Source: Bacteroidales bacterium (lineage in GTDB: Bacteria; Bacteroidota; Bacteroidia; Bacteroidales; M50B96). Taken from it: DNA of 33,943 bases. The stretch lies in contig JAGYLP010000008.1 in NCBI GenBank assembly GCA_018401015.1, positions 1-33,943 of the forward strand, given 5' to 3'. Numbering within the stretch: position 1 is the stretch's first letter; the number at the start of each line of letters is the position of its first letter. Of this stretch, positions 4,566 to 29,383 are shown one piece after another. Position numbers and translations under genes: made by a program. A model generated the notes under the pieces. The model saw only the letters and a program-made list of their open reading frames with translations, had not been told where the DNA came from and ran no database searches.

Positions 4566-4575
4566 AGGATTCACA

Positions 4576-5631: not shown

Positions 5632-5670
5632 GCTCTATTCTGGATTCCGGGTTTAAAATGGTCGGTAAAA

Positions 5671-9204: not shown

Positions 9205-9277
<73 letters not shown>

Positions 9278-9279
9278 CA

Positions 9280-9311
9280 AAAAAACCCGGAAATTACTCC
9301 GGGTTTTTTTT
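9280..9311. terminator. Bidirectional intrinsic terminator between tRNA-Phe and the PUL operon
   Basis: Stem CCCGGA (9286-9291) and TCCGGG (9298-9303) with a 6-nt loop, flanked by A-run 9279-9285 and T-run 9304-9311, gives a U-tracted hairpin on both strands. On the plus strand it ends the tRNA transcript; on the minus strand it begins at the stop codon of the phosphorylase (9310-9312) and ends the PUL operon. Confidence 0.9.
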
Positions 9312-12099
9312 ATGCTTTAGACTGAAGCTTGCTCAGCAAGACCTTTATCTCGCAGTAGCCACGAGGCGACAAGGCCTCTAATTGACCATAATCCAACAAG
9401 TAATCCTTCGCACCCGAATCAGGGGTGAATTTATGACCATTAACACTTACCGCCGCAAGCTGATAACTCGAATAATCGAGTGAATCGGGATTCTCGTAGC
9501 GTACACTTAACCGCAACTTTCGGAAATTGCGCTCCATTACCAACCCTTGTCCATCCTGAAACCAGGAAGCCGGTAAACGTGGCACCAGACGCAAATTGCC
9601 CCATTGCCCTTGAATTCCAAAAACCGCTGTTGTCAGCGCCAAAACCATCCAGGTAGACGATCCGGTAAGATAGGCATAAGCGCCCCGGTTATCGGGTTCG
9701 AAAAAAGATGGAATTCCCGGGAAGAGCTTCGATTGAGCACTATCGGTTCCCATGCGAATCAACATTTGTAAGATTCGATAGCCTTCCTCGACAAAACCTT
9801 GTTCGTACAAAGCTTGCATCAACATGATGTTTTGCTGGCTCCATTTGCTGCCATGTTCCTTGTATCCATATATAAACCCGGAAACTCGGCCCATATTCAA
9901 ATCTAGCTTCGGATACGGGGTACACAATCGATAACCCGAAAAGTGACTTTCTGCCAGGTTATAATCCAGTGCCGGAAGAATTTGACGAATCCGTTTATCC
10001 GGAACAATTCCAGACAAAATAGGAATAACCTGAGAGGTTAAATCCATGCTTACCCCATCGTTTTGCACTCCGTGTTGTGCCCGACCAAGGTTGTTGTAAT
10101 GGCCATTAAAGAAACCTTCCGTTGGCGATAAGGAAACCCATTCATGTTCCAATAAATGCCGGGAAATCTCTTGATATTTATGGCGCAAGTCGGCCACTAA
10201 ATCAGCAATGGGGACTGATACTTTTTGCCCGCTCACCCGATAACTTACAAGATTAAAATAGCTATTCAGACGCTTATTCTTCGCTTCCACACTTTCCATC
10301 TCTGTGCGAGGTGCTTTCAAGTCGAGTAAGAGGATAATTTCTTCGAGCAGATCAATCGATTGCTGCTTATTCCATTGAGCCAGCACCTCCAGCATATCGG
10401 CTAAACGACGAAAGTTGGCCGCATAAAAGGATGTAAAACAAACCGATTCTCCTTTCTCGCGAGCCATGTCGTAGGTGTCGTTCCAATCGCCGCCTTCGAG
10501 CAATACATTTTGGTGTTCCCCTACGTGATAAAAGGCGCTTAGTTGCTGAATCAATACATGTTCCAACACCGTGCTTTGGTATACTTTCCCTGAAATATCG
10601 AGTTGCCAGTTACCATGGGAGGATTGGTAGTGTTCATCGTGACGTTTGCTCCGATAAATGTGTTTATCTTTCCAGAAAGGAATTTCGCGAAGCAGAAAAT
10701 TGAAATCACCCGTTTCATGCAAGTAAAACTGAAGCACATACACCGGCCATGCACCATGATCGCTCCAGGTGCGAGGGATATTGTTTCGGTCGGCAATAAA
10801 CTCACCCGGCTTTGTGCCAATTATGGTAGCATTCGATCCATCGATACGAATACCGCGGAAATTGTTTAACATTTCCTCGCGTGCACTCTCGGCGTCGAGT
10901 AAAAAGATGGAGATCAAGTCCTGCCATAAATCACGCCATCCGCGACCACCTCGTCCATAGCCAAAATCGGGCAAATAGGAATTTCCATAAACTTGCCTGC
11001 ATTTAAGCTGAAAATTAAGCCAGGGCAACAAACCATTGAGGGACTTATCGTTTGTTTCTACCCGCAAACTATTACCATAATCTTCCCAAAAGTTTAAGGT
11101 TTGCCGAAGGATTTCTTCCGACTGATAATGGCTACGATAAGTTTGAATCCAGCGGTCGAAATCAGCTTCTTGGTCGCTAATCCCATGAAGGATGACCCAG
11201 GTTTTACTTTCTCCGGGAGTTAATTCCACCTCGTCGAATCGGAATGCACCAATGGCTTCCTTTCCGTGCGGCAAGCCTTTGCTTTCCCATTGAGGGGGAA
11301 GGTTTCGATACACTGTTTCAGGATTATCGAGCGATCCTCCTTCGCCGATAAAATCGAGCATGTAGGGATAGAAAGCATTGGGAGCTTCTCCCTCAGGATC
11401 AAACCCATATATCAGGTATTGCATGTCGTTATGGCGATGTCCATGCTCATCGTGCACCATGCGCGGCTTTACACGAACGCCATGCGTATCGACCCAAACT
11501 TCCTGAAACATGGTAGTTACTTGTCGATGATCGCGAAAATGATCGGGATGACGAGCAAAGATGGGATTGGCAAAAAATGGAATCATGCGAATATTTCGAT
11601 CCGACTCGTTCGTAATTTTCACTAACATGATCTCTACCTGGTCGCCATTGGACGGAACAAATACTTTTGTTTCTGCCTGCAAAGACCATTTTCGATGTTT
11701 TCTACGAAGAGTAAAGCAGCCGGGCATTCCTTCCACCTCGGAATAATCCGCCTCGTTGGACCACTTACTCTTTCGTTGAAAAACGCTATTTCCGCTCAAC
11801 GACCAAGGTTCTTCCCCTACTACCCTGAGCCAAAAATTGCGTCCGCCAACATTCCGGTGCAATTCCTCTGTAACGGTTGCGGGAGTGAGGTAATGTTCAA
11901 AGTTTAGTGCGATATCGCCTTTAAGCTCCGGGTTTACGAAGCTTTTCATTCCTTGCGTATTGAATAAGGGGAAATAAAGTCGGGAAACATAATCGGCTTG
12001 AGGGGCAAGGAATTTCCCATTCGATTCATTGGTAAACTTCCAGAGTGGCCCTTCTGCTTTACGGGCCACTTTACCTCCCCAGGTATCGTCTATCTGCAT
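9310..12099 (-). CDS. GH94-like (clan GH-Q) beta-glucoside/oligoglucan phosphorylase, cytoplasmic
   Basis: The product is 929 residues with no signal peptide or lipobox. The N-terminal half is a beta-rich supersandwich. The catalytic (alpha/alpha)6 domain shows GRGWRDLWQD (about 380, like the GYRD-QD phosphate-site region of GH94), WSDHGAWP, then GGDWNDT with Asp538 as the predicted general acid, and later HNNLGRAQ-like, GYRLCTPYPKL and KEHGSKW segments. The family cleaves beta-glucosides with phosphate, giving alpha-glucose 1-phosphate (or another sugar phosphate). GH94 proper is often near 800 residues; the greater length and GH16 context leave GH149 or GH161 (beta-1,3-oligoglucan phosphorylases) as open alternatives. 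It is the last gene of the PUL and overlaps the terminator. Phosphorylase fold: confident; substrate: inference. Confidence 0.85.
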   Translation of the reverse strand: MQIDDTWGGKVARKAEGPLWKFTNESNGKFLAPQADYVSRLYFPLFNTQGMKSFVNPELKGDIALNFEHYLTPATVTEELHRNVGGRNFWLRVVGEEPWSLSGNSVFQRKSKWSNEADYSEVEGMPGCFTLRRKHRKWSLQAETKVFVPSNGDQVEIMLVKITNESDRNIRMIPFFANPIFARHPDHFRDHRQVTTMFQEVWVDTHGVRVKPRMVHDEHGHRHNDMQYLIYGFDPEGEAPNAFYPYMLDFIGEGGSLDNPETVYRNLPPQWESKGLPHGKEAIGAFRFDEVELTPGESKTWVILHGISDQEADFDRWIQTYRSHYQSEEILRQTLNFWEDYGNSLRVETNDKSLNGLLPWLNFQLKCRQVYGNSYLPDFGYGRGGRGWRDLWQDLISIFLLDAESAREEMLNNFRGIRIDGSNATIIGTKPGEFIADRNNIPRTWSDHGAWPVYVLQFYLHETGDFNFLLREIPFWKDKHIYRSKRHDEHYQSSHGNWQLDISGKVYQSTVLEHVLIQQLSAFYHVGEHQNVLLEGGDWNDTYDMAREKGESVCFTSFYAANFRRLADMLEVLAQWNKQQSIDLLEEIILLLDLKAPRTEMESVEAKNKRLNSYFNLVSYRVSGQKVSVPIADLVADLRHKYQEISRHLLEHEWVSLSPTEGFFNGHYNNLGRAQHGVQNDGVSMDLTSQVIPILSGIVPDKRIRQILPALDYNLAESHFSGYRLCTPYPKLDLNMGRVSGFIYGYKEHGSKWSQQNIMLMQALYEQGFVEEGYRILQMLIRMGTDSAQSKLFPGIPSFFEPDNRGAYAYLTGSSTWMVLALTTAVFGIQGQWGNLRLVPRLPASWFQDGQGLVMERNFRKLRLSVRYENPDSLDYSSYQLAAVSVNGHKFTPDSGAKDYLLDYGQLEALSPRGYCEIKVLLSKLQSKA

Positions 12100-12145
12100 A
12101 ATTGAATGAGCTTAAAATGAAATGAAGGACAAGCAATAGAATTAA

Positions 12146-13465
12146 TTATCGTATTAAGATAGGAATATTTGCGGTAGCTGCATTTCGCTGTGAATCGAAT
12201 GCATACACAAACACCCGATATTCACCCGGCTCGGATGGCAATGGCAATTTAACCGCGTTCAAGTCAGACTCGAGTCGCATCAGCGTATCAGGACGCTTCT
12301 CGAAGTCGCCTCCTTCACTTTGTTGATCGACCGGCACTTCGGCAAGCAATTCGAACACATATTCGAGCTCGTCGCCTTCGGGATCGGTCACCTGCGCGAA
12401 TAAGTTGAGTGTATCGCCCGGTGCAAAAACAGCTTCGTTGGTATTGGCTTGTGTTTGTAATTCAAACTCCTGAATTTGAGGCGCTCTGTTTTCGGGATAG
12501 GAACCCGTCCACAAATAGTGCATTACATCGACCGCTTCGGTTTTTTCACCCCCTTCGAGGAACATACCGTACCAAGTAGGAGTTCTTTCCTGTTTTTGTC
12601 CCCACAAAAACACGAACGAGCCGAGGCAATGCTGCTTGTCGGAGGCAATTACTTGTTGATAACGAGACAAATAGCTTTCTGCCTTTGTATGACTATTCTG
12701 TTCGTAGGGTCGTCCCCAAGAGGTTGTAGCTACCTCCCAATGTCCGGTTGCTCCCCATTCTGTAACCAAATAAGCTCCTTCGTAATTTGCCTCTTTGATA
12801 TATCGGGGCAGATTAACGATATCGCCATATAATTGAAAACTTAAGAAATCGAGATCGGGAGCCCTTTCGCTCACCGCTTGAATTTCCTGCTTACCAGCAC
12901 CTGCAAGCATGGTAGTAGTTAAGTGATACGGATCTAGTTCATGTATCATTTTGGAGATGTCGTTTACAGCATCCCAAACCTTGAGGTTCTCGTAATGCAG
13001 GTTAAGCTCATTTCCGATACCCCAGGCCAATAAGGCCGGATGATCTTTAAACTGAAGAACTTCAGCTTTGATGCGCTCGAATTGCTCCTGAACCTGCTCC
13101 GGATCGTTGTAATCGAAACCATGTCGTTCGCGCCCCACTTCCAGACCCATGCAAACCATTAAACCGTGTTCGAGAGCAGCATCGAGCATTTCCTGACCGG
13201 TAATAAATGCATCGCCGGTGCGCCAGGTGCGTATGGTATTACCGCCATGCCTTGCAACCGACGATGGATCTTTCCCTTCGAATCCGGCCCCTTTCACATA
13301 AAAAGGAACTCCATTCCTAAGCAAGGTGTACTGACCGTCTTCATGTTTAAGCCCCACCTTAACCGGCTTATTTTCAGCTGCTTCGCCATTAGCTTCTGGG
13401 GAACAAGATGCTATTGAAAATTGGAGCATAGCAAGTATTCCCCCGAGGAAGAGTAATTGTTTCAT
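12146..13465 (-). CDS. GH2-like TIM-barrel glycosidase lipoprotein, candidate GH158 endo-beta-1,3-glucanase
   Basis: The product is 439 residues. The signal peptide ends in SIASC (lipidated Cys21). Residues about 40-325 form a clan A (beta/alpha)8 barrel: NTIRTWRT on an early strand, WGIGNELN with acid/base Glu153, and LVTEWGATGHWE with nucleophile Glu236. Residues about 328-439 are beta-rich (APQIQEFELQTQ, FAPGDTLNLFAQVTDPEGD) and look like an Ig-like domain. Automated pipelines would probably call it a GH2 TIM-barrel protein, but the usual GH2 sandwich domains are absent. A barrel plus Ig-like domain in a GH16/GH3/SusCD locus resembles the laminarin-active GH158 enzyme of Bacteroides uniformis; that assignment is inference. 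It lies 40 nt downstream of the MFS gene and 46 nt upstream of the phosphorylase. Confidence 0.75.
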   Translation of the reverse strand: MKQLLFLGGILAMLQFSIASCSPEANGEAAENKPVKVGLKHEDGQYTLLRNGVPFYVKGAGFEGKDPSSVARHGGNTIRTWRTGDAFITGQEMLDAALEHGLMVCMGLEVGRERHGFDYNDPEQVQEQFERIKAEVLQFKDHPALLAWGIGNELNLHYENLKVWDAVNDISKMIHELDPYHLTTTMLAGAGKQEIQAVSERAPDLDFLSFQLYGDIVNLPRYIKEANYEGAYLVTEWGATGHWEVATTSWGRPYEQNSHTKAESYLSRYQQVIASDKQHCLGSFVFLWGQKQERTPTWYGMFLEGGEKTEAVDVMHYLWTGSYPENRAPQIQEFELQTQANTNEAVFAPGDTLNLFAQVTDPEGDELEYVFELLAEVPVDQQSEGGDFEKRPDTLMRLESDLNAVKLPLPSEPGEYRVFVYAFDSQRNAATANIPILIR

Positions 13466-13505
13466 AGAATCAGAGTTTTGGGTTGATGATGATTGGGAAA
13501 AAATC

Positions 13506-15071
13506 TTATTCAGTTTTGATTAATACTGCTTCGAGTTCTTCCAACGATTTATTTTTAGTTTCAGGTAATATCCTGGCAATAACGATTAATCCGAGGAAGG
13601 CAAAAACACCATAAATTAAAAAGGTAGTCGAGGAGCCTAGCGCATCGAGTTCCCAGGGAAAGACTAACTGCACGGTAAAACTGACAGCCGAGTTAATAAA
13701 ACCGACAAAGGAGATGGCTAATCCACGAATGTAATTAGGGAATATTTCGGAGAATAGCACCCACATTACCGGACCAATGGAGATGGCAAAGGAAGCAACA
13801 AACGCCAGAATCCCCAGGAGTACCAGAAGCGAATCCATGTGAGTAGCGTAAGCCATCATTTCGCTTTCGACCTGGGTATATTCACTTTCGGTTAGAAGGT
13901 CTTTAATGGCCGTTTTAAACTCGATATCGGATTCAAAACGCATACTTTGAATGGACGCTAATTTCATTCGAATATCTTCATGAGCAAAAAGAGCCACGTC
14001 CTCTTCATCTAATTCGTAATGAGCATTGGCAAATCCATAAGAAATTAAGAACATACTAATTGCTATCCCGCTCAACCCAAAGAGCAGCAAGACCTTGCGT
14101 CCAAATCGATCGATAAACAGAATAGCTAAAATGGTAAAGATGAGATTTGTAAGCCCTACCAGGCTCGCTTGAATAAAAGATGCATCGGCTCCGATCCCTG
14201 ATTGTTCAAAAATCATGGGAGCATAGAAAAAGACCGAATTGATTCCTGTTATTTGTTGGAGCACAGCGACTAAGATTCCAATGAGCAGGACTAATCGGAA
14301 GGCAGGCTTGAGCAATTCTTTCCAGGGTGTTTGTTTTTTTCCTTGTTCCTTTTCCAGGCCTTTTCTCACCAGCTCGAGATCGGCTATTGCCCGGCTCTCC
14401 GAGCTAACTTGCTGAAAAACAGCTAAGGCTTCCTGATCGCGTTTACACATAACCAACCAGCGTGGGCTTTCGGGAACCCTAAATAAACCCAACCAATAAA
14501 CCAGGGCAGGAATTGCTTCCAGACCAAGCATAAATCGCCAGGCTGTTTCTTTCAGATTCCAGTTGATAGCGAGCGAATAATCCGACTTACTCCAATCGAA
14601 GATGAGGTAATTGGTAAAAAATGCGAGGGATATCCCCAGCACAATATTCAATTGATTGAGCGAAACCAAGCGTCCGCGGATGTTGGGCGGAGCAATTTCG
14701 GCAATATACATGGGAGCAATAATAAGCGAAGCACCCACTCCGAAACCGCCAAGCATACGAGCAATTACGAGCAAGGTATAGCTCGGAGCCAGAGCACTGG
14801 CAATAGCAGAAACGGCATAGAACAAAGCTGCCCAACTCAACACTATTTTTCGGCCATACCGTGTACTTATAGGACCGGCCACCATCATCGCTAAGGTAGA
14901 AGTAAGGGTAAGCGAACTTACTACCCAACCTATTTGTACTTTGCTCAACTCGAATTGTGGCTCGATAAAACGAATCACTCCGGAAATTACCGAAGCATCG
15001 AAGCCCATGAGAAACCCACCTAGTGCGACAATAAGCGAGGTTTTTATCGTATATCGTTGTTGTTTCGTCAT
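13506..15071 (-). CDS. MFS sugar porter (SP family) permease, inner membrane
   Basis: The product is 521 residues with 12 predicted membrane helices. Sugar-porter signatures are present: RYGRKIVL after helix 2, GRLVSLNQLNIVLGI, PESPRWL closing helix 6, QQITGINSVFFYAP in helix 7, DRFGRKVLLL after helix 8 and PETKNKSLEELE after helix 12. Helices 9 and 10 are separated by an acidic stretch of roughly 60 residues (about 350-415) much longer than in E. coli XylE and predicted periplasmic. The likely role is uptake of glucose or short oligosaccharides made in the periplasm, feeding the cytoplasmic phosphorylase two genes downstream. It starts 3 nt after the GH3 stop, indicating translational coupling. 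Confidence 0.93.
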   Translation of the reverse strand: MTKQQRYTIKTSLIVALGGFLMGFDASVISGVIRFIEPQFELSKVQIGWVVSSLTLTSTLAMMVAGPISTRYGRKIVLSWAALFYAVSAIASALAPSYTLLVIARMLGGFGVGASLIIAPMYIAEIAPPNIRGRLVSLNQLNIVLGISLAFFTNYLIFDWSKSDYSLAINWNLKETAWRFMLGLEAIPALVYWLGLFRVPESPRWLVMCKRDQEALAVFQQVSSESRAIADLELVRKGLEKEQGKKQTPWKELLKPAFRLVLLIGILVAVLQQITGINSVFFYAPMIFEQSGIGADASFIQASLVGLTNLIFTILAILFIDRFGRKVLLLFGLSGIAISMFLISYGFANAHYELDEEDVALFAHEDIRMKLASIQSMRFESDIEFKTAIKDLLTESEYTQVESEMMAYATHMDSLLVLLGILAFVASFAISIGPVMWVLFSEIFPNYIRGLAISFVGFINSAVSFTVQLVFPWELDALGSSTTFLIYGVFAFLGLIVIARILPETKNKSLEELEAVLIKTE

Positions 15072-15074
15072 AGC

Positions 15075-17315
15075 TTAATCGATTACATGAAAGGTTTGGT
15101 ATTGGATTGATGCCTCATTAGGCCCTACTCCCAGGTAAAATTCGCCCGGTTCCAGCAAATAGTTTCCTTCTTCGTTATAAAATCCCAGGGCTTGAACCGG
15201 AATAGCAACCTTCACCTGCTTCTCCTCCCCAGACTGAAGCGAAACCCGCTCAAAATGAACCAGTTCCTTCACCGGCCGGGTCCTGCTCGCTACAAAATCG
15301 CGAAAATAAACCTGAACGATTTCTTCGCCGGCGAAGGAGCCCCTGTTTTGCAGGATAAATGTTAACTCTACGGTATCGCTTCGCGAAAATGTATCGCTAT
15401 TTAGATGTGGTTCGCTGTACGCGTATTCCGTATAGCTCAATCCGTAACCAAAAGGATAGGCAGGCAAGGAGCCAATATCGAGGTAATGATTGGTATTGGG
15501 GAGTGAAGTCTGAAAGAGTCGTTCGGGAATCGTTTCCATGGGGACATGGTTTCGTTCGTCAACGGGTCTGCCGGTGTTTTTGTGTGCGTAGTAAATGGGA
15601 ATTTGTCCTTCGGTTTGAGGGAAAGTAATGGGTAATTTCCCGGATGGATTTCGTTTACCGGAAATCAAATCGACCAAGGCCGAACCTCCCATTGATCCGG
15701 GATGCCACAGGTACAAAATAGCCTCAACGAATGGCTCCACCTCGCTCAGCACAAGCGGACGACCTGCCATAACCACCAGGACAATCGGTTTTCCAAGTTC
15801 CGCCAAATTTTGAATAAGTTTGGTTTGAGCTCCGGGCAAACCCAAGTGCGCCCTCGAGTGAGCTTCTCCGCTTAGAATCGATTCCTCGCCAACCACTACA
15901 ACCATTACATCCGAGTGGCGACCTGCCTCCAGAGCAGCATTTATCCCGCGAGTATCGGCTGATCGCGTGTTCGCTAAGGCTTTTTCGTAAAGAAGCTTAT
16001 TCGCCCCAATCCAATTGGTAAAGGCCATTTTCGGAGTTACTGTAAGGAGCGTATCTCCATCAAAAATCCAAGTCCCTAGCTGCTCGTAGCGATTATCGGC
16101 AAGGGGCCCAATTAATGCTAATTGCTGAATCGATTCTAGCTTCAGCGGAAGAATCTGCCCTTTGTTTTTAAGAAGAACAGCCGATTGCACCGCCAACTCC
16201 CGAGCGAGGTCCTCTCCCTTTCGCGGAGGACGTTGAGCTATAGTAGCCCTCCGCTCATCGTATTGAAACAGCCCCAATTTCATCTTTACTTCGAGAATTC
16301 TTCTTACGGAAGCCTCGAGCTGATTACGGGAAATTTTTCCCTCGGCCAAGAGTTTTTCCAATTCTCCGGAATAACACGAACCCGACATTTCCATGTCGAG
16401 CCCTGCGCCGATGGCTAAATGTGCTGCCTCAGCATCACTCGTAGCGAATCCATGATTTTTCAGTTCATGAACCGAGGCCCAATCACTCACAACAAAGCCC
16501 GGGTATCCCCATTGCTCCTTGAGTGTTTCCTGAATAAGGTATCGATTGGCAGTGGCTGGCACGCCATTCAATTCATGGAAGGCCGTCATAAAGGATGCAA
16601 CGGAGTGTTTGGCTGCTTCCCTAAATGGTCGAAAATGAATATTTTCCAAATCGATACGCGGAACGGCTACGGTGTTGTAATCGCGTCCGCCCTCCACAGC
16701 TCCATAGGCTGCAAAATGTTTGGCACAAGCTGCAAGCAAGGATTCAGGATAAAGCGAATCGCCTTGATAGGCTTTTACCATGGCCACTCCCATTTGCGCA
16801 GCGAGGAAGGGATCTTCGCCAAAGGATTCGGCAACTCGCCCCCATCTTGGATCGCGGGTAATATCGAGCATGGGTGAAAATGTCCAGTTAATTCCGGCTC
16901 TTGCAGCTTCCCGGGCACTATGGGCAGCGGCCGCCTGCACTAAATCCGGATTCCACGAAGCAGCCTGAGCGAGGTTAATGGGAAAAATCAGCTTAAAACC
17001 ATGAATTACGTCACGTCCGATTATAAGTGGAATTCCTTTCGGACTTTCATTCAAAGCAGTACGCTGAAATAGTTCAATGCGCTCCGGATTATTTTCGTTC
17101 AGCACACCTCCAATTTCACCCCGCCGTATAGCATTTAAGAAGGATTCTTCATCCTCTTTCGAAGGAGAGTTTACCAAGTTCATTTGCCCTACAAGCTCAG
17201 GCACCGACATTGACCTCAACATCGAATCCAATTCCCGGGATTGCTTTCCCTCCTCACCCGACGAACAGGCGGTAAGCACAAAGCCCCAAACTAAAACCAT
17301 CCAACCAAACCGCAT
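15075..17315 (-). CDS. bglX: GH3 beta-glucosidase (BglX type), lipoprotein
   Basis: The product is 746 residues with signal peptide and lipobox LTAC (Cys17). The full three-part GH3 layout is present: N-terminal barrel with KHFAAYGAVEGGRDY and nucleophile Asp278 in VVSDWAS; alpha/beta sandwich with GEESILSGEAHSRAHL, whose Glu in SGE fits the acid/base position; and a C-terminal FnIII-like domain (from about 650). Length and motifs match periplasmic BglX-type exo-beta-glucosidases. It would release glucose from the non-reducing end of imported or surface-made oligosaccharides. The gene lies 41 nt after SusD and 3 nt before the MFS permease. Linkage preference cannot be read from the sequence; beta-1,3 fits the neighbours. 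Confidence 0.92.
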   Translation of the reverse strand: MRFGWMVLVWGFVLTACSSGEEGKQSRELDSMLRSMSVPELVGQMNLVNSPSKEDEESFLNAIRRGEIGGVLNENNPERIELFQRTALNESPKGIPLIIGRDVIHGFKLIFPINLAQAASWNPDLVQAAAAHSAREAARAGINWTFSPMLDITRDPRWGRVAESFGEDPFLAAQMGVAMVKAYQGDSLYPESLLAACAKHFAAYGAVEGGRDYNTVAVPRIDLENIHFRPFREAAKHSVASFMTAFHELNGVPATANRYLIQETLKEQWGYPGFVVSDWASVHELKNHGFATSDAEAAHLAIGAGLDMEMSGSCYSGELEKLLAEGKISRNQLEASVRRILEVKMKLGLFQYDERRATIAQRPPRKGEDLARELAVQSAVLLKNKGQILPLKLESIQQLALIGPLADNRYEQLGTWIFDGDTLLTVTPKMAFTNWIGANKLLYEKALANTRSADTRGINAALEAGRHSDVMVVVVGEESILSGEAHSRAHLGLPGAQTKLIQNLAELGKPIVLVVMAGRPLVLSEVEPFVEAILYLWHPGSMGGSALVDLISGKRNPSGKLPITFPQTEGQIPIYYAHKNTGRPVDERNHVPMETIPERLFQTSLPNTNHYLDIGSLPAYPFGYGLSYTEYAYSEPHLNSDTFSRSDTVELTFILQNRGSFAGEEIVQVYFRDFVASRTRPVKELVHFERVSLQSGEEKQVKVAIPVQALGFYNEEGNYLLEPGEFYLGVGPNEASIQYQTFHVID

Positions 17316-17356
17316 ATCACCCTCGTTTTAGGTCCTTTTACAATTGCTACTGGATT

Positions 17357-18913
17357 TTAATAACCTTGATTTTGACGAAAAACACCACCCGACAAATCGA
17401 CTTCGGCTTGTGGTATCGGGAGGAAACCACGAGTTATCGGATTAAAGGTCACATCGAACAGTTGTTCGTCGCCTTCGTAGTTCGGACCATAGAGTCCCGT
17501 AACGGTAAGTTCTTGTTGGGCGAAATCCATTCCTTTGCGGATTACATCAAAATAGCGTAATCCTTCCAGGCTTAACTCCAGACGACGTTCGCGGTAAATA
17601 TTTTCTGCGGTAGCAGGAATACTTGGTAAGCTAACACGCGCGCGCACTCGATCGAGGTAAACTTGAGCATTTGGGCTTCCCAATTCAGCAGCCATGAGCA
17701 GTACATCGGAAAAACGAATGACTCGGAAATTGCTGGTTCGGTTCAGTTCAAACTGACCGTCGCCACCCCAATGTTCGGCATCGGATGAATATTTTTTGGA
17801 AAAATAGCCCGTATGCTGAAAACCTTTATCAAGGCTGCCATCGAGATCCTCTTCAAACAACACGGTATGTGCTAAACGCGGATCACCGGCCAGGTCGTCG
17901 ACCAATTTTTGATTCACGGTGGCAAAGCTCCAACCGCGGTCGTAATCGTCGGAGCCGGTAACACGTGGTCCTTGCATTTGAGCGGCCAAGTTGCCTTCTC
18001 CACCGCGTGGATAGTCCCAATCCCACCAAGGAGGAGTATCCCCATGTGAGATTTCAAAAACCGATTCGATACCAAATTCACCGGCCAATTGAAAGTTCAT
18101 GGCGTAATCGTTCAACAAATCGTGCCCGCTCGATGTAATTAGTTCTTCTAGATAAGCTAAGACTGCAGCTTGATCGATGGTTTGGTCACCTGCCATCAGG
18201 TCGCGCTGATAAACACCGGAGTAAAACAAATAGACCCTTGCCAGTAAGGCTTGGCTGGCCCATTTGCTAATGCGTCCGGCCTCCATCGGCGAAATTACCG
18301 CCGGTAAACCGGCCATGGCTTCTACCAGGTCGAGAGCAATCTGATTGTACACCTCTTCGGGGGTATTTTGTTCCTGCTCATATTCCGATGGTCCTTTGAT
18401 GGTTTCGGTAAGAAGTGGAATATTTTCGAAGAAACGGACTTGTTCAAAATAGAAGTAGGCACGTAAGAATTTGCATTCAGCAATTACTCGGGTTTTAAAC
18501 TCGTCGGTAGCGTCAATCTCTCCAATTTTTTCTAGCAGCAAGTTGGCTCGATAGATTCCAATGTAGTTTTTTATCCAGATGGAATGAACCAATGGATTTG
18601 TGGTTGGAATATTAAATGTATTGAGCTGATTTTCTTCCATTCCATCGTTCGCATCGGCACCTCCTGCAAAGGAATCGTCGGACAAGATATCGGAAACTGT
18701 CAGGAAGGGAGCCCAACTGACACCGGGCGACGATTGGTATCCGAGGACATCATAAACGGCCACTAAGGCACGCATGGCATCTTCTTCGGTTTGATAAAAG
18801 TTTGAGCTAACTTCCCGATCGAGCGGATATCTTTCCAGAAATTCGTCGTTACAACCTGAGAGGAGAACTAAGGAGAAAGCAGCAAAAAGGGTAATAATTG
18901 TATTCTTTTTCAT
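17357..18913 (-). CDS. susD: SusD/RagB-family outer-membrane glycan-binding lipoprotein
   Basis: The product is 518 residues with lipobox LLSGC (Cys21) followed by NDEFLERYPLDREVSSNFYQTEEDA, a typical SusD mature start. Helical TPR-like segments (ALVAVYDVLGYQ, CKFLRAYFYFEQVRFF, WASQALLARVYLFYSGVYQ) and the C-terminal RRLELSLEGLRYFDVIRKG and NPITRGFLPIPQAEVDL motifs are diagnostic of the family. SusD caps the SusC channel at the outer surface and delivers glycan. It begins 17 nt after the SusC stop, the usual tight SusC-SusD pairing. The symbol is used in the family sense; the ligand is not starch on this context. Confidence 0.95.
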   Translation of the reverse strand: MKKNTIITLFAAFSLVLLSGCNDEFLERYPLDREVSSNFYQTEEDAMRALVAVYDVLGYQSSPGVSWAPFLTVSDILSDDSFAGGADANDGMEENQLNTFNIPTTNPLVHSIWIKNYIGIYRANLLLEKIGEIDATDEFKTRVIAECKFLRAYFYFEQVRFFENIPLLTETIKGPSEYEQEQNTPEEVYNQIALDLVEAMAGLPAVISPMEAGRISKWASQALLARVYLFYSGVYQRDLMAGDQTIDQAAVLAYLEELITSSGHDLLNDYAMNFQLAGEFGIESVFEISHGDTPPWWDWDYPRGGEGNLAAQMQGPRVTGSDDYDRGWSFATVNQKLVDDLAGDPRLAHTVLFEEDLDGSLDKGFQHTGYFSKKYSSDAEHWGGDGQFELNRTSNFRVIRFSDVLLMAAELGSPNAQVYLDRVRARVSLPSIPATAENIYRERRLELSLEGLRYFDVIRKGMDFAQQELTVTGLYGPNYEGDEQLFDVTFNPITRGFLPIPQAEVDLSGGVFRQNQGY

Positions 18914-18930
18914 GGTCTTAGGTTCTTAGG

Positions 18931-21900
18931 TTAGAAAGTTAAAGTTGTTCCTACCCGGAAGGTACGTGCTTGAGGATAGATGGCTCGGTCGATTCCGATA
19001 TCGAATGAGCTCATAGCTCCAATTTCGGGATCGGCTCCGGTGTATTGTGTAAGGGTAAACAGGTTTTCGGCCGACACATAGAAGCGCCATACGGTTGCAC
19101 CCATCCGTTGCAAAACGCGCATAGGTAAGGTGTATCCAACCTGAATATTTCTGAGACGGACGAAGGAACCATCTTCGATGTATAAATCGGAAACGCGGTA
19201 GTTGTTATTGGCGTCGATCCAAGTGTATCGGGGCACTTCGTTGGTTGATCCTTCTTCGGTCCAACGGTCGAGAGCCGACACCGGTCGGTTGGTGAATCGC
19301 AGATCTTCGCGCTGCGCACCATTGAAGATTTCATGTCCGAAGGCTCCTACTACGAGGAAGGAGAAATCGAAGGCTTTATAATTAAGCGAACCGTTAATAC
19401 CGAGAGTGAAATCGGGCGTTGGATTACCAATGTAGGTTCTATCTTCTTCGTTGAGCACTCCGTCGTTGTTTACATCGACAAATCGCACATCGCCTGGTTT
19501 TGCATTAGCTTGCAAGAGTTCGCCGGTAGAGCCAATGTGCTGAAATACCTCGGTTTGATTTTGGAAAATCCCATCAGTTTGAAAGCCCCAGAAATAGGCT
19601 ATGGGCAAGCCTTGTTCGGCGCGTGTCACCATTCCGGCAACGGCCCAGGTGGCTCCGGGCAATACTTTCTGGTCGTTTCCAATGAAAGTCATCTCGTTTT
19701 GGTTGTATGCTCCGTTCACTCCAATCGAATACCGGAATTCATTCACCCGATGACGCCAGTCGAGCGACAATTCAATGCCTCGATTTCGAACACTACCTAC
19801 ATTCGCAAAAGGAGGGTCGTTCCCCACATGAGCCGGAATAGGAATCCGCTCTAAAAGTCCACTGGTTGTTTTAATGTAGTAATCGGCAGTCGCAATTAAG
19901 CGATTGTTAAAGGCTGCCAGTTCGAGGGCAATATCGATTTGCTCGGATTCTTCCCAACGAATATCCGCGTTTTCGATAAACAAGGGCGAAGCACCCACCA
20001 TACGACCATCGCCAAAAATATAACCACGGCTGATATCAATGGTACTAACATATTGATAATCGCCAATTTCCTGATTACCATTCACACCCCACGAGGCACG
20101 AAACTTCAGATAGTCGACCGATTCCATTTTTGGCATGAAGCTCTCATCGGAAATGAGCCACGAAAATCCTAAGGATGGGAAAATTCCATAGCGGTTGTTC
20201 GGTCCAAATTTCGAGGAACCATCGCGGCGTAAAATCCCGGTAAAAGCATATTTGCTCTTGTAATCGTAGGTAATCCGGCCAAAAGTGGAAAACAAAGCGG
20301 CATGAGTTGCACCTCCGGTGGCAACCCAGGAAGTATCGGTAGCCATATTCAAGTAAATGTTCTCTGGATTAGCAGTGGGCACTCCGGCGTTGAATCCGGT
20401 CAAATTCTCAAAATTATACTCCCAGGCGGTGGTACCCATTAATACCGAAAACTGATGATCGTTGATTTTTTTCTCATACCGAAGCGTATTTTCCCATTGC
20501 CAGGTGTAGTAACGATCTACCCCTTTGAAAACAGATGTTTCGGCGGTATTATATTGCGCACCATTCAAATAAAACAGGGGTCGGTAGGAATCGTTGTTGA
20601 TATAAGCCATATCGAGTCCAAGGCTGGACCGAAACACTAACCCTTCGAGGGGCTCTAATTCACCGTAAATATTCCCAACGACTTTATCGACGCGGGTCTC
20701 TGCATTTTGAAGCTCAAGCAGGGCAAGCGGATTCACGACCTCCGCACCAACATAGTTCGATATACCATAAATATTCCCGGCGGCATCGGTCACAACCGGC
20801 TGATTACTGTAGGGGACATCGGCTAATTCCGTTGGGTCGGTTTCATACAAAGGAGTTAAGGGATCGAGGTTTAATGCGCTGGAATACGGACCATTGAAGG
20901 ATTGATTGCTGGCTACACCCCGACGAACGATGTTCGAATAGCTTAAATTATTCCCTATACGAATATTTCTATTCACCTCGTGATTACTATTGAGTCGGAA
21001 GGTGATTCGATCGAACTGCGATTTTTCTCCTCCGATAATCCCTTGCTGGGAAAAGTAAGAAAGAGAGGAGGCATAGGAGGATTTTTCGTTTCCGCCCGTT
21101 AAGGAGATTTCATGGTTGGTGATTGGGGCATTTTTCTGAAAAAGAAGCGATTGCCAATCGGTGTTATGTGGAGCAATTTCATTCAGGTCGAAAGGTTCGG
21201 ATAAACCGGCATTGCGGGCACCTTCGTTCATGAGCATTCGATACTGATCGGCATCGAGCATTTCGATGGTATTTGCCGGATTCTGAATTCCATAGTAAGC
21301 ACTATAGCTCAGGTTCACTTTCCCTTTTTTTCCGCTTTTGGTTGTTATAAGGACTACCCCATTGGCAGCACGCGCACCATAAATAGCAGCCGACGCAGCA
21401 TCTTTTAATACATCGATTGATTCAATATCACCCGGGTTCAAAAAGTCGATTCCACCCACGGGCATTCCATCGACAATGTAGAGCGGATCGGCATTACCGG
21501 TAGTACCTGCACCCCGAATTCGGACGGTTGGCGCTTCGCCCGGTTGTCCCGATAAGTTAGTAACCTGTACTCCGGCAGTTCGACCCTGCATGGCTTGCTC
21601 CATACGCAAATTTGGAGTTTCCGAAATCTGCTTGGCATCGACCGTTGCAATGGCACCGGTTACTACTTTTTTCTTTTGAGTACCATACCCAATTACAACA
21701 ACCTCGTCTAAATCGGCCTGATCGGGCTTCAAAACCACATCGAGAGTAGTTCGGCTTTGAACGTTTAGCTCCTGGCTCTCGTAACCAATAAATGAAAAAC
21801 GAAGAACGCTATTTGGCGAAGATACTTCGATCCGATAATTACCATCCATGTCGGTAATGGTTCCTGCTGTTGTTCCTACTTCCACGATAGTGGTTCCCGG

Positions 21901-22020
21901 AATACCGGTCTGGTCGCCAGCATCGGTTACCCGACCGCTCACTGTAAACTGAGCCATGGCGGTAGAAGTAATAAAGAGACCTGCTAAGGCCATCCAAAAA
22001 GAGAATAAATATTGCTTCAT
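18931..22020 (-). CDS. susC: SusC/RagA-family TonB-linked outer-membrane receptor
   Basis: The product is about 1029 residues from the ATG at 22020, chosen because it opens directly into a signal peptide (MKQYLFSFWMALAGLF, cleavage near AMAQ); ATG 22029 and TTG 22059 are upstream alternatives. A carboxypeptidase-D-like regulatory domain follows (about 25-105, VSGRVTDAGDQTGIPGTT), then the TonB box/plug region with VVVIGYGTQKKK, LYIVDGMPV and ESIDVLKDAASAAIYGARAANG, then the 22-strand barrel ending in aromatic LTF. SusC transports oligosaccharides across the outer membrane with TonB energy. Upstream is a 14-bp inverted repeat (22061-22093), so its leader may be structured. Confidence 0.96.
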   Translation of the reverse strand: MKQYLFSFWMALAGLFITSTAMAQFTVSGRVTDAGDQTGIPGTTIVEVGTTAGTITDMDGNYRIEVSSPNSVLRFSFIGYESQELNVQSRTTLDVVLKPDQADLDEVVVIGYGTQKKKVVTGAIATVDAKQISETPNLRMEQAMQGRTAGVQVTNLSGQPGEAPTVRIRGAGTTGNADPLYIVDGMPVGGIDFLNPGDIESIDVLKDAASAAIYGARAANGVVLITTKSGKKGKVNLSYSAYYGIQNPANTIEMLDADQYRMLMNEGARNAGLSEPFDLNEIAPHNTDWQSLLFQKNAPITNHEISLTGGNEKSSYASSLSYFSQQGIIGGEKSQFDRITFRLNSNHEVNRNIRIGNNLSYSNIVRRGVASNQSFNGPYSSALNLDPLTPLYETDPTELADVPYSNQPVVTDAAGNIYGISNYVGAEVVNPLALLELQNAETRVDKVVGNIYGELEPLEGLVFRSSLGLDMAYINNDSYRPLFYLNGAQYNTAETSVFKGVDRYYTWQWENTLRYEKKINDHQFSVLMGTTAWEYNFENLTGFNAGVPTANPENIYLNMATDTSWVATGGATHAALFSTFGRITYDYKSKYAFTGILRRDGSSKFGPNNRYGIFPSLGFSWLISDESFMPKMESVDYLKFRASWGVNGNQEIGDYQYVSTIDISRGYIFGDGRMVGASPLFIENADIRWEESEQIDIALELAAFNNRLIATADYYIKTTSGLLERIPIPAHVGNDPPFANVGSVRNRGIELSLDWRHRVNEFRYSIGVNGAYNQNEMTFIGNDQKVLPGATWAVAGMVTRAEQGLPIAYFWGFQTDGIFQNQTEVFQHIGSTGELLQANAKPGDVRFVDVNNDGVLNEEDRTYIGNPTPDFTLGINGSLNYKAFDFSFLVVGAFGHEIFNGAQREDLRFTNRPVSALDRWTEEGSTNEVPRYTWIDANNNYRVSDLYIEDGSFVRLRNIQVGYTLPMRVLQRMGATVWRFYVSAENLFTLTQYTGADPEIGAMSSFDIGIDRAIYPQARTFRVGTTLTF

Positions 22021-22060
22021 CGCATACATTTTTAAATCATCCAAACTCAAGTGAGGCAAG

Positions 22061-22093
22061 CTGAATCAAAATCATGGTGATTTTCAGATTCAG
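22061..22093. repeat. Inverted repeat between GH16 and susC
   Basis: Arms at 22061-22074 and 22078-22093 are complementary over 14 bp (7 bp, a 2-nt bulge at 22085-22086, then 7 bp) with a 3-nt loop (22075-22077). No U-tract follows in either direction, so it is not a standard terminator. It lies 32-64 nt upstream of the susC ATG (22029 or 22020) and would form a hairpin in the leader; as DNA it could be an operator. Confidence 0.6.
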
Positions 22094-22137
22094 GGGGAAT
22101 GCCTAAGTAATTTCCCATGGTATAAAACGATGGGGAT

Positions 22138-23253
22138 TTAAGGAATTGGCTGAAATACTCTCACGTAATCAACCTTCATACTTTGCGGGAAACGGGTGGT
22201 GATATTTGGATTTCCCGGCCAATTTCCGCCCACAGCTACATTAAAAATAAACCAATAATGTTGATGAAATTCACTCATAGAGATCGAAGTAATCGATGTT
22301 TCATGATAGAGCTGATTATCGACAAACCACTGAATTTTCGACTCATCCCAAATGATGGAGAAAACATGATAAGCCTCGACAAAAGTTCCTGCAGATAGTT
22401 GATAAGAACCACCAAAGGAAGCATGTCCGTCTTCGTCCCAATGAATCGTGCCATGAACTTCGTTTTCCCGCCCGGAGCCACCAATCATTTCCATGATATC
22501 AATCTCACCACAAGCCGGCCAACTCACCGAGCTAATGTTGGCACCCAACATCCACAATGCAGGCCATAGACCTTGTCCTTCCGGTAATAATGCACGAATA
22601 TCCACCCGACCATACTGAAATGAAAAACCATTTCGGGTAATGATGCGGGAGGAGGTGTATAAGCGTCCGCCATAATTTTCGTTTCGAGCTTCTATCTCCA
22701 ATACACCATCGTGTACACGAGTATTTTCAGCCCGATAATATTGTAATTCATTGTTTCCCCAACCACAGAGCGACGGACAACCATCGCCTATTTCGAAAGA
22801 CCAATAAGTCAGATCCAACTCGTTCCCATTGAATTCATCTTGCCAAACTAACTCCATTCCCTCGTAGGATAGTGGAGAGAAATATCCATTTTCGAGGGGC
22901 ACTTCGTTTTCGACCGGCAAATAATCAAAACTCAAGGAAGCTTTTAGGTATCGACCTGATGAACCATAGGCACGCAATTCGAAGTAGTACGAATTACCGG
23001 GCAGCAGTTCATACTCAAAAAAACCGATGGCATTCGAATCAACAGCTTGTTCACCGTCCAATTCATACAAGGCATAAGCTACTGCATGAGCCGCCGAAGC
23101 TTGCAATTGTGCCACATGATTGACAGTATCAATCGACAGCAACTGGAAGCTTAGGTTCGAAGGGTCGTCGGTTGAAATGGGGTCTTTTTCGGAACAGGAA
23201 AAAAGCATTCCAAGAACCAGCGAAACAGCGATTAGAGTGGAGTAACGGGCCAT
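22138..23253 (-). CDS. GH16 endo-beta-glucanase (laminarinase-type) lipoprotein
   Basis: The product is 371 residues from ATG 23253, chosen because it starts a lipoprotein signal peptide (MARYSTLIAVSL, lipobox LFSC, Cys20). The frame stays open upstream to ATG 23343, but that part crosses a terminator-like hairpin. Residues about 30-115 form an FnIII-like domain; about 125-371 are the GH16 jelly roll, with WQDEFNG, GYWSFEIGDG-type entry, WPALWMLG, and the catalytic GEIDIMEM with nucleophile Glu250, Asp252 and acid/base Glu255. The ExDxxE form with the extra Met is that of bacterial laminarinases/lichenases (GH16_3), which cut beta-1,3 or mixed beta-1,3/1,4-glucan. SEKD after the Cys favours surface display. 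Second gene of the PUL. Confidence 0.93.
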   Translation of the reverse strand: MARYSTLIAVSLVLGMLFSCSEKDPISTDDPSNLSFQLLSIDTVNHVAQLQASAAHAVAYALYELDGEQAVDSNAIGFFEYELLPGNSYYFELRAYGSSGRYLKASLSFDYLPVENEVPLENGYFSPLSYEGMELVWQDEFNGNELDLTYWSFEIGDGCPSLCGWGNNELQYYRAENTRVHDGVLEIEARNENYGGRLYTSSRIITRNGFSFQYGRVDIRALLPEGQGLWPALWMLGANISSVSWPACGEIDIMEMIGGSGRENEVHGTIHWDEDGHASFGGSYQLSAGTFVEAYHVFSIIWDESKIQWFVDNQLYHETSITSISMSEFHQHYWFIFNVAVGGNWPGNPNITTRFPQSMKVDYVRVFQPIP

Positions 23254-23258
23254 AAAAC

Positions 23259-23293
23259 AAAAAAAAGGCCCCGGCAAAAAACGCCGGAGGCCT
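23259..23293 (-). terminator. Terminator-like hairpin between PKD lipoprotein gene and GH16
   Basis: On the minus strand a 10-bp GC-rich stem (AGGCC/GGCCT outer 5 bp, CCGGC/GCCGG inner 5 bp, one bulged base at 23288, 7-nt loop) is followed by eight Us (23266-23259). It starts 12 nt after the PKD gene stop and its U-tract ends 6 nt before the GH16 ATG at 23253. This is a full intrinsic-terminator signature placed inside an apparent operon. Confidence 0.85.
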
Positions 23294-23305
23294 AAAAAAA
23301 CATGT

Positions 23306-24790
23306 TTAATTAAAACTAAAGTTGCGAATATAGAAGGTTCCATCTACGGCATGTCCGGAACCTCCGATTACTAAACCAACTAAATCGAGATCCGTTCTTG
23401 TTTTAGGTGTGCCGGTAGAACCTTCGGAAGGAGATTCCAGATCGAAGGTGTAAGTTTTCCATTGGTCAACAACAATTTCAGCAGGGTCCACATCGTACTG
23501 TACCCAGCTTGCCCAAAATTCTTGAGTTTGGCTGGCATCGGCAATCCAAAGTGTAATACCCGTAGTTAATCCGCCTTCAGCATAGGTATTGCTGCTTGGG
23601 ATGTAAACATCGATGGAAAAGCTGGTGAAATTATCGAATTGAATATCGAAATCCATTTGAAATTTAAGATCAGCATACATCTCGGTACCACGCACATATT
23701 CACCAACTTTAGCAGCGGTAGGATCGGTAGGATCGTCCACGCCAATGTTAATGGCAACAGCCGATTCACTTGGAATGAGGTAAGACACATCGGCAGCGTC
23801 GGTGGAAGCAAAGGTGTTAAAGAAAGCGGTTGGAGCGAAATCGTTCAGATCCTCACCAAAACCCTGGTTTTCAGTCACTACATCGGGTTCATCGGCCGGA
23901 TTGGCATAACTTACATATACAAATTGCCAATGTAATTCGGCGTAGGTATAGGAAATGGTTAATTGGTCGTAGGTACCCATCGATTCAATGGATGCAGTAA
24001 AGGTTTTGGAAGCTTCGGGAACCATACTTTCGGCGGATGTTCCTAATTGAGGTATACCCATCCAGGCTCCGGTTCCATTCAGAGTAATTGTTCCAGCAAC
24101 CGCATCGTATTCAAAAGAATGAGTTCCACTGAGCCAAGCACTCACATCTTGTCCATCGGAATTAACCATGTTCGCTGCAGTAGCTTCGAAACAAACTTCG
24201 TTGAGTGCAGTGCTACCAAACACAGCATTTTCGCCCCAGAAGACGCCATTATCGTTGAAAATGAATTCACCGGAACGATTGAATGTAAATTCGTGTTGGA
24301 ATACGCACGGACGAGAACCATCGTTTGTAAGCGACCACCAAATAAAAGGTTGAGTTGCATCGGGTCCAACTCCAAGAGCGACACCTTCGCGGATTAATTT
24401 CCAGGTTTTTTCGGTTTCGCCAGCTAACAGAGCTAAGGCAGAATTAGGATCGGTAAGTTCGAGGGTTTGCGAAAAACTGGCCGTTACCATTGCATCGTTG
24501 CTGGCCGTTAATACCACCGTATAAGTACCGGATGTTGCATAGGTGTACACCGGATTTTCGTCGGTAGAGGTGTTACCATCGCCAAAATCCCATGAATAGG
24601 AAGTAGCATTTTGCGAGAAGTTACTGAAGTTTACCTCGAGAAAGTTCTCAGTACTAACCGTGTATTGGAAGCTGGCGATGGGGTCTTCTGCTACCGGATC
24701 GTCGTCCTTACAAGAGGTAAAACTTATCATGGAAGCCATAGCTACCAACATCATTAAAGACGATAAGCGTAAGAAGGAATTCTTTTTCAT
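23306..24790 (-). CDS. PKD-domain lipoprotein, probable surface glycan-binding protein
   Basis: The product is 494 residues. Signal peptide and lipobox FTSC (Cys27) are followed by KDDD, matching the acidic Lys-Asp surface-export signal of Bacteroidota lipoproteins. A PKD domain (about 38-112, SYSWDFGDGNTSTDENPVYTY with GTYTVVLTA) follows. Residues about 120-300 form a beta-rich module (LLAGETEKTWKLI, GSRPCVFQHEFTFN) often seen in Bacteroidota secreted proteins, and about 320-494 look like a CBM-type jelly roll (TSFSIDVYIPSS, WKTYTFDLE, FYIRNFSFN). No catalytic motif is visible. It is first in the PUL transcript, beside GH16, and most likely tethers the glucan at the cell surface in the role of SusE/SGBP-B. 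The ligand is inferred from context. Confidence 0.8.
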   Translation of the reverse strand: MKKNSFLRLSSLMMLVAMASMISFTSCKDDDPVAEDPIASFQYTVSTENFLEVNFSNFSQNATSYSWDFGDGNTSTDENPVYTYATSGTYTVVLTASNDAMVTASFSQTLELTDPNSALALLAGETEKTWKLIREGVALGVGPDATQPFIWWSLTNDGSRPCVFQHEFTFNRSGEFIFNDNGVFWGENAVFGSTALNEVCFEATAANMVNSDGQDVSAWLSGTHSFEYDAVAGTITLNGTGAWMGIPQLGTSAESMVPEASKTFTASIESMGTYDQLTISYTYAELHWQFVYVSYANPADEPDVVTENQGFGEDLNDFAPTAFFNTFASTDAADVSYLIPSESAVAINIGVDDPTDPTAAKVGEYVRGTEMYADLKFQMDFDIQFDNFTSFSIDVYIPSSNTYAEGGLTTGITLWIADASQTQEFWASWVQYDVDPAEIVVDQWKTYTFDLESPSEGSTGTPKTRTDLDLVGLVIGGSGHAVDGTFYIRNFSFN

Positions 24791-25975: not shown

Positions 25976-26193
25976 GCGCTCGTTTCCGCGAAACGTGGCT
26001 TATGCGCCCACGCTAGCCGAACTTCGCCAGATAAAAGCGGAAAAATCCTGTTTGATAATCTTTCCTGATAATTCGGGTTGTAATGCACAAAACCTTTTTG
26101 TACTATGATTACAAAAGCATCATCCAACAAATTAACATGTTCAAAGCCCTTAATAAACTCGTCGGTCCAACTCCCGAAAGGGCATCGATACGT

Positions 26194-29366: not shown

Positions 29367-29383
29367 GCTTTATTTGCGTTTAG

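Follow-up and report, generated by a model that had tools for sequence, protein, structure and literature searches.

The 1,3GUL of Bacteroides uniformis comprises SusC, SusD, SGBP-B, GH16_3, GH158 and GH3 and has an HTCS regulator, with no phosphorylase or MFS porter named in the sections of PMC7157763 compared; the text of that paper contains no mention of a phosphorylase or of GH94. On laminarin, BuGH16 is reported to leave glucose, laminaribiose and a trisaccharide as limit products, and the same is said of BuGH158 (PMC7157763, excerpts). Laminarin PULs of Formosa (PMC6246565) and Muricauda (PMC13188888) combine SusCD and an MFS porter with an oligosaccharide-acting GH149, GH17, and GH30; in Formosa the porter is fused to GH17B, and the parts of both papers compared make no mention of GH158. 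In Gram-positive bacteria, β-1,3-glucan is phosphorolysed by the products of tandem GH94–GH161 loci, which include a disaccharide-acting GH94 and ABC transporters and are not PULs (PMC6484121, excerpts). The GH94 laminaribiose phosphorylase of Paenibacillus sp. YM-1 (PsLBP; 6ggy, 6gh2, 6gh3) is encoded beside ABC transporter components (PMC5827456, excerpts). A metagenomic screen has yielded GH94 laminaribiose phosphorylases (PMC8950772, review, excerpts), and no description of such an enzyme in a Bacteroidota PUL was found in the open PMC literature.

The locus studied here lies within a 33,943-nucleotide stretch of DNA from a Bacteroidales bacterium, referred to as the window. It has the same enzyme and binding-protein set as 1,3GUL, but with a GH94 enzyme, an MFS porter and a LuxR-type regulator. 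Like the Formosa and Muricauda loci it joins SusCD to an MFS porter, and its neighboring hydrolase and porter genes resemble the fused pair of Formosa; GH94 takes the place of GH149, and the hydrolases include GH158 where those loci have GH17 and GH30. The disaccharide-acting GH94 is shared with the Gram-positive loci, whereas GH161 is absent from the eight genes. The enzyme resembles PsLBP in its WND and RD motifs, length and fold, and differs in having KEHGSKWxQQN where PsLBP has KENGxxFxH, and in belonging to a SusCD PUL whose porter is of the MFS type. With a probability of roughly three in four, the window carries a β-1,3-glucan (laminarin-type) PUL with a phosphorolytic finish. Pathways of this kind are already known; the enzyme variant is new, and neither the variant, nor the exchange of phosphorylases, nor the extent of the porter linkage was found in the open PMC literature.

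Gene content, regulator, and surroundings of the locus

Eight minus-strand ORFs, all open over 15 kb and separated by 3 to 78 bases, follow one another in the transcriptional order PKD lipoprotein, GH16, SusC, SusD, GH3, MFS, GH158, GH94 (Table 1). The original prediction was of eight co-directional genes of these families, a β-1,3-glucan PUL in which proteins for glycan capture and glycosidases bearing export signals are joined by an MFS porter of the inner membrane and a signal-less clan GH-Q enzyme. It is supported by the ORFs and by Pfam/TIGRFAM-type domain matches, although it omitted the upstream regulator. As expected of a Bacteroidota β-1,3-glucan PUL, a SusC–SusD pair is linked to β-1,3-glucan enzymes and binding proteins. 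Further genomes of the order contain the same genes together, which is more than chance. Lipoboxes are present in GH158, GH3, SusD, GH16 and the PKD protein, and none was found in GH94, by a simple pattern rather than a trained predictor; no export signal was seen in GH94.

Table 1. Features of the locus, in window coordinates
Feature	Position	Strand	Basis
PUL regulator: propeller, Y_Y_Y, LuxR-type HTH	25055..27930	-	ORFs 26194-27930 and 25055-25975
PKD-domain lipoprotein, putative surface glycan-binding protein, 494 aa	23306..24790	-	PF18911 58.8 bits
Terminator-like hairpin with T-run	23269..23289	-	PKD gene–GH16 gap
GH16 laminarinase-type lipoprotein	22138..23253	-	PF00722 77.1 bits; GEIDIMEM motif
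SusC/RagA TonB-dependent transporter	18931..22020	-	TIGR04056 912.7 bits
SusD-like glycan-binding lipoprotein	17357..18913	-	PF14322, PF07980
GH3 exo-β-glucosidase, lipoprotein	15075..17315	-	PF00933 223 bits, PF01915, Fn3-like; lipobox LTAC
MFS sugar porter, XylE type	13506..15071	-	TIGR00879 338.9 bits, over cut-off
GH158 endo-β-1,3-glucanase, lipoprotein	12146..13465	-	solved GH158 structures; lipobox IASC
GH94 laminaribiose-phosphorylase-type, Gln clade, 929 aa	9310..12099	-	Pfam, PsLBP match, tree
13-pair hairpin with A- and T-run flanks	9279..9310	+	between tRNA-Phe and GH94 end
tRNA-Phe	9205-9278

The best solved relative of the SusD protein is 6gcz (E 1e-68), which we take to be a laminarin-binding SusD. 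Laminarinases are among the best solved relatives of the GH16 enzyme (E 1e-70). The enzyme previously called GH158-like is now firmly GH158, matching 9oro (E 1e-95) and 6pal (E 5e-73) over its full length. Its acid/base E153 and nucleophile E236, placed by motif from the BuGH158 residues (PMC7157763, excerpts), are invariant together with N152 in all nine sequences aligned. In the PKD protein the lipobox FTSC is followed by KDDD, and homologues 51–65% identical are encoded directly upstream of GH16 in the three relatives aligned; its predicted structure was set aside (mean pLDDT 55.8). Two listed starts were revised. GH16 probably begins at 23253 (MARYSTL, lipobox) and not at 23343, so that the overlap with the PKD gene would vanish, and SusC probably begins at 22020 rather than at the TTG at 22059.

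The hairpin between the PKD gene and GH16 has counterparts with a T-run in two of three relatives scanned (L017, 2874-2903; L021, 6480-6518; none in L013). Sequences differ and the place is the same in these three of four PULs, window included. With a hairpin at this position a single undivided operon is not certain; it may be a partial stop, lowering expression of the downstream genes and setting the level of the binding protein apart. The hairpin beyond the GH94 gene could act as a terminator on both strands. A promoter scan was discarded, having returned 14 sites against a shuffle mean of 31.1, i.e. fewer than the shuffles.

The regulator scores only 35.1 bits against NF053779 (BT3442 family), far below the cut-off of 940, and is split by frameshifts, a point against the main reading: the proteins of relatives align to it in two frames overlapping at 26065-26275. 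The corresponding regulators are single ORFs of 962–991 aa in L016, L019, and L021, and an ORF of at least 801 aa reaching the end of the stretch in L013. That the locus is decaying or silent here owing to a disrupted regulator is unlikely, and would be compatible with the gene roles of the main reading. The frames alternate around 25954-26300 where the four relatives keep a single frame over the part seen, but all eight structural genes are open, and the genome is an 84-contig assembly, so that the frameshifts may equally be real loss or assembly error.

A mobile island at the tRNA-Phe gene was considered and not borne out. Pfam names no integrase among the 20 window proteins, the PUL genes are not set apart in GC or GC3, and in the DNA examined around FKBP in G145 and G031 there is neither a tRNA-Phe nor any PUL gene. 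Elsewhere in the window, type IX secretion-related genes occupy 2544-8382 (a SprB-repeat/CHU_C protein, a PorP/SprF-like protein and OmpA-type proteins), and genes for a NagZ-type GH3 and a Prc-type protease are linked at 28233-31507. The latter two are also together in the congener G240 (60% complete; L023), where another gene, not the PUL, lies upstream within the 1.7 kb visible.

Family, catalytic residue, and phosphate pocket of the GH94 enzyme

On account of its 929 residues, longer than typical of GH94, the phosphorylase had been suggested to belong to GH149, GH161 or an uncharacterised branch. Both Pfam models exceed their cut-offs (PF17167, 84.1 bits against 27; PF06165, 42.8 against 23). 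Sixteen distinct solved sequences match at E ≤ 0.001, being laminaribiose, cellobiose, lactose, chitobiose, and β-glycan phosphorylases or cyclic glucan synthase. PsLBP is the best by far (752.7 bits over residues 20–923, 350 of 904 aligned positions identical, 38.7%), with the next solved relative at 94.3 bits. Neither GH149 Pro_7066 (6hq6) nor any solved GH161 chain matches at this threshold; in contrast, the true GH149 of G346 scores 1286 bits. A structure model built from eight sequences (mean pLDDT 73.1; below 50 at 377–389, 526–550, and 729–750, around the active site) was used for fold ranking only. The predicted fold is closest to PsLBP (E 1.6e-68, TMq 0.86), followed by the best other GH94 (E 9.8e-32), GH161 (E 1.7e-26, TMq 0.71) and GH149 (E 5e-21). 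Sequence search and fold ranking both favor PsLBP and GH94; membership of GH149 or GH161 is rejected, and a new family is not supported. The length is normal for the laminaribiose-phosphorylase type (the PsLBP chain has 913 residues). The notion of an uncharacterised branch survives at the level of a clade, a separate Bacteroidota/Calditrichota branch with an altered phosphate pocket, and fails at the level of the family. The source genome holds a single GH94 copy and no match to GH149. Among plasmids, the 131 GH94 records all fall below 60% identity and none covers 80% of the query.

The catalytic Asp of GH94 and GH149 is assigned in the published clan comparison to the last residue of WND (PMC6771811, excerpts), which makes it D541 here. 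Asp538, previously put forward for this role, is the Asp of GGD. D541, R389, and D390 are common to all 85 sequences of a set comprising the window enzyme, those of G103, G346, and G231 from the same order, PsLBP, and the best 80 of at least 546 relatives. These 80 derive from at least 589 pattern-matching contig stretches, at least 546 of which encode a relative, and thus sample the nearest relatives, not all of GH94. No gap of more than two residues relative to PsLBP occurs after residue 20, and a β-hairpin gate restricting the substrate to disaccharides, as described in excerpts of PMC6771811, is likely to be of PsLBP-like length judging from the alignment, although the model has low confidence around the active site.

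Twelve sequences of this set, 11 from Bacteroidota and one from a Calditrichaceae genome, form a clade on a long stem branch (1.1), with a support of 100 in the 85-sequence tree and 100/100 in a 37-row tree. All 12 share the motif KEHGSKWxQQN, and all 73 others among the best 80 of at least 546 relatives and the five added sequences, PsLBP included, have KENGxxFxH. In CgCBP, phosphate is bound by Arg351, His666, Thr731, and Gly732, and the sugar by Arg367, Asp368, Trp488, Tyr653, Glu659, Asn660, and Phe664 (PMC5501786, excerpts). His666 corresponds to Gln755 in the window enzyme and to Gln throughout the clade, hereafter the Gln clade, whereas His is found in all 73 others. Asn660 and Phe664 are replaced by His749 and Trp753 in the clade, and at position 667 the 12 have His where the 73 invariably have Tyr. 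Retained are Thr812 (12/12), Gly813 (11/12), Arg389–Asp390, Glu748, Asp541, and, in the eight sequences aligned there, Trp539. The phosphate-pocket His is present in alignments of cyclic glucan synthase, cellobionic acid phosphorylase, chitobiose phosphorylase and PsLBP, and by eye the GH149 of G346 apparently has the same His (YEGLGSIYWH).

The window GH94 lacks the phosphate-binding His (His666 of CgCBP) expected of a laminaribiose phosphorylase, and, since Gln755 takes its place, that name is used in the sense of "works like" and not of membership. Phosphorolysis is nevertheless the most likely reaction in view of the genomic context. It is proposed, tentatively and at well below even odds, that the Gln clade is a distinct subfamily with a phosphate pocket remodelled as a whole, Gln replacing His, His replacing Asn and Tyr, and Trp replacing Phe, which either phosphorolyses with other phosphate ligands or runs another reaction, while keeping its porter and GH158 partners. 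A departure from ordinary phosphorolysis altogether, with the clade acting in the slot of GH149 as an inverting laminaribiose hydrolase or using another nucleophile or donor sugar, is quite unlikely. It would fit the four replacements seen in 12/12 against 0/73, the long stem and the persistence of the His in the enzymes just listed; however, the residues named above as retained are still in place, the porter and GH158 are the same as those of canonical phosphorylases (see below), and the His makes no hydrogen bond to sulfate in the PsLBP or Pro_7066 structures (PMC6771811, excerpts). No description of the Gln motif was found in the open PMC literature, and a Gln-clade member may already have been assayed within the metagenomic screen mentioned in PMC8950772.

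Linkage of the MFS porter and GH158 to three types of phosphorylase

The porter aligns with XylE (4ja3) at E 2e-70 and keeps QQxxGIN and GPVxW. Relative to XylE, an insertion of about 60 residues at about 347–407 is seen in eight of nine sequences aligned, window included, and is absent in G233 (L021). In a survey of 393 genomes of the order, a porter of this type (E ≤ 1e-130) occurs in 27, GH149 in 48 and GH94 of the present type in eight, the source genome included. GH149 or GH94 is held by 26 of the 27 porter genomes, as against 55 of all 393 (Fisher p 2.9e-24 with the window, 2e-23 without it, treating genomes as independent and uncorrected for kinship). The phosphorylase is on the contig of the porter in 25 of the 27, within 4.1 kb in 24 and at 12.2 kb in one; for the remaining two genomes, GH149 sits on a separate contig in G363, and in G256 the contig measures 4.1 kb and ends inside GH158. 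The E ≤ 1e-130 line omits weaker porters, such as that of G233 (45% identical) and a cut one of G046, both of which adjoin GH158 and GH94.

GH158 is next to the porter in 22 of the 27. For the other five none was seen within 1.5 kb, which counts against the main reading; three of these have GH149 beside the porter, one is flanked by GH16 on both sides and one is cut by the contig. The linkage is also one-sided and in this respect counts against the main reading too: no window-type porter was found at E ≤ 1e-130 in 29 of the 55 GH149- or GH94-bearing genomes. An MFS_2 porter, 75–88% identical to one of G346, is found instead or additionally in eight of 30 GH149 loci examined, so that a different porter can act for GH149, if not for GH94. 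No MFS–GH158 fusion comparable to the MFS–GH17 of Formosa was found among 32 loci. Mutual exclusion of GH149 and GH94 is not claimed, the overlap of one genome (G346) being about that expected by chance for 48 and eight of 393.

The porter might instead import glucose released by GH3, the GH94 substrate entering by another door or arising inside the cell. The best-scoring solved relatives of the porter, which are xylose, glucose, and hexose porters (XylE, GlcP), speak for this and against the main reading, and glucose is among the endoglucanase limit products (PMC7157763, excerpts). This reading is still very unlikely, given that the porter goes with a phosphorylase in 26 of the 27 genomes and stays with GH94 in G202 and G233, where no GH3 was seen in the PUL.

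Among the 11 Bacteroidota loci of the Gln clade (from the set with the best 80 of at least 546 relatives), porter, GH158, and GH94 stand in a row in seven (window, G046, G202, G203, G103, G231, G233), and the order is porter, GH94, one gene, GH158 in three (L029, L030, and L032, the porter of L032 being two ORFs). In G346, GH94 adjoins an MFS_2 porter; a window-type porter lies 11 kb off beside GH149, and the GH158 relative is only distant. The 5.2-kb Calditrichaceae contig carries neither porter nor GH158. No homologue of either was found at the 72 remaining loci of the best 80 of at least 546, two of an unnamed phylum and the rest of other phyla, within the available DNA, which is short for some. 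The G346 locus (L018, 1-20000) also encodes GH17, GH30, and three MFS-type porters along with GH149 and GH94, and a division of labor by chain length is possible there.

Of 395 genomes sampled from the phylum, only the source genome, G527 and G575 have such a GH94 (E ≤ 1e-60). In the latter two, which belong to another family, a canonical-motif GH94 is encoded beside the same porter–GH158 pair, the gene order being GH94–porter–GH158. Their enzyme nests with those of Chloroflexota and Bacillota, with weak innermost forks (82/38 and 90/87). Given this separate position in the tree and the same neighboring pair, GH94 was probably recruited to the porter–GH158 pair twice. GH149 is the commoner partner. 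The pattern suggests that GH149, canonical GH94 and window-type GH94 interchange beside one pair in one pathway. As three types of phosphorylase accompany it, the porter–GH158 pair very probably feeds short β-1,3-glucans to a cytoplasmic phosphorylase, and the strongest argument for an unchanged role of the Gln clade is that this pair also accompanies the other phosphorylases.

Proposed pathway and its implications

The sequences show the families, a GH94 with no export signal seen, a porter and a GH158 that accompany phosphorylases in many genomes, and the altered pocket; from these we infer the substrate, what is transported, the direction of the reaction and its need for phosphate. In the proposed scheme, the PKD protein, SusD and SusC would bind glucan pieces and bring them in, and GH16 and GH158 would trim the glucan, largely down to laminaribiose and glucose. 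GH3 would hydrolyse a share outside the cytoplasm, and the XylE-type porter would move laminaribiose, and perhaps glucose as well, through the inner membrane. There the cytoplasmic GH94 would convert laminaribiose and phosphate to α-glucose 1-phosphate and glucose, with phosphoglucomutase leading on to central metabolism; the genome has two PGM/PMM-domain genes. In two relatives the porter–GH94 genes are divergent to Entner–Doudoroff genes, identified by Pfam in L029 (3656-8262; G6PDH, 6PGL, EDD, KDPG aldolase) and as similar ORFs by eye in L032 (1941-6498), which are likely an outlet for glucose 1-phosphate.

The original prediction held that some disaccharide merely escapes the GH3 enzyme. 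The PULs of G203, G103, and G231 have a GH3 as the window does. Those of G202 and G233 weaken the idea: porter, GH158, and GH94 are present and no GH3 was seen in the stretches examined, so that phosphorolysis could be the sole finishing step encoded there. A preference of GH94 for another β-glucoside such as cellobiose or sophorose, in a PUL serving mixed-linkage glucan, is highly improbable: cellobiose phosphorylases do belong to GH94 and mixed-linkage glucan is a further substrate of BuGH16, though a 4-fold poorer one, but high specificity for laminarin is reported for BuGH158 and BfGH158 (PMC7157763, excerpts), and cellobiose phosphorylases reach 59 bits against 753 for PsLBP and a fold E of 2e-31 against 1.6e-68.

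Laminarin represents a large carbon flow, and hydrolysis or phosphorolysis of its disaccharide sets the energy yield. The linkage described here points to the porter as a specific candidate for bringing laminaribiose across the inner membrane in Bacteroidota. The Gln clade offers a natural experiment on the extent to which phosphorolysis depends on an intact GH94 phosphate site, and may be of use in β-1,3-glucoside synthesis.
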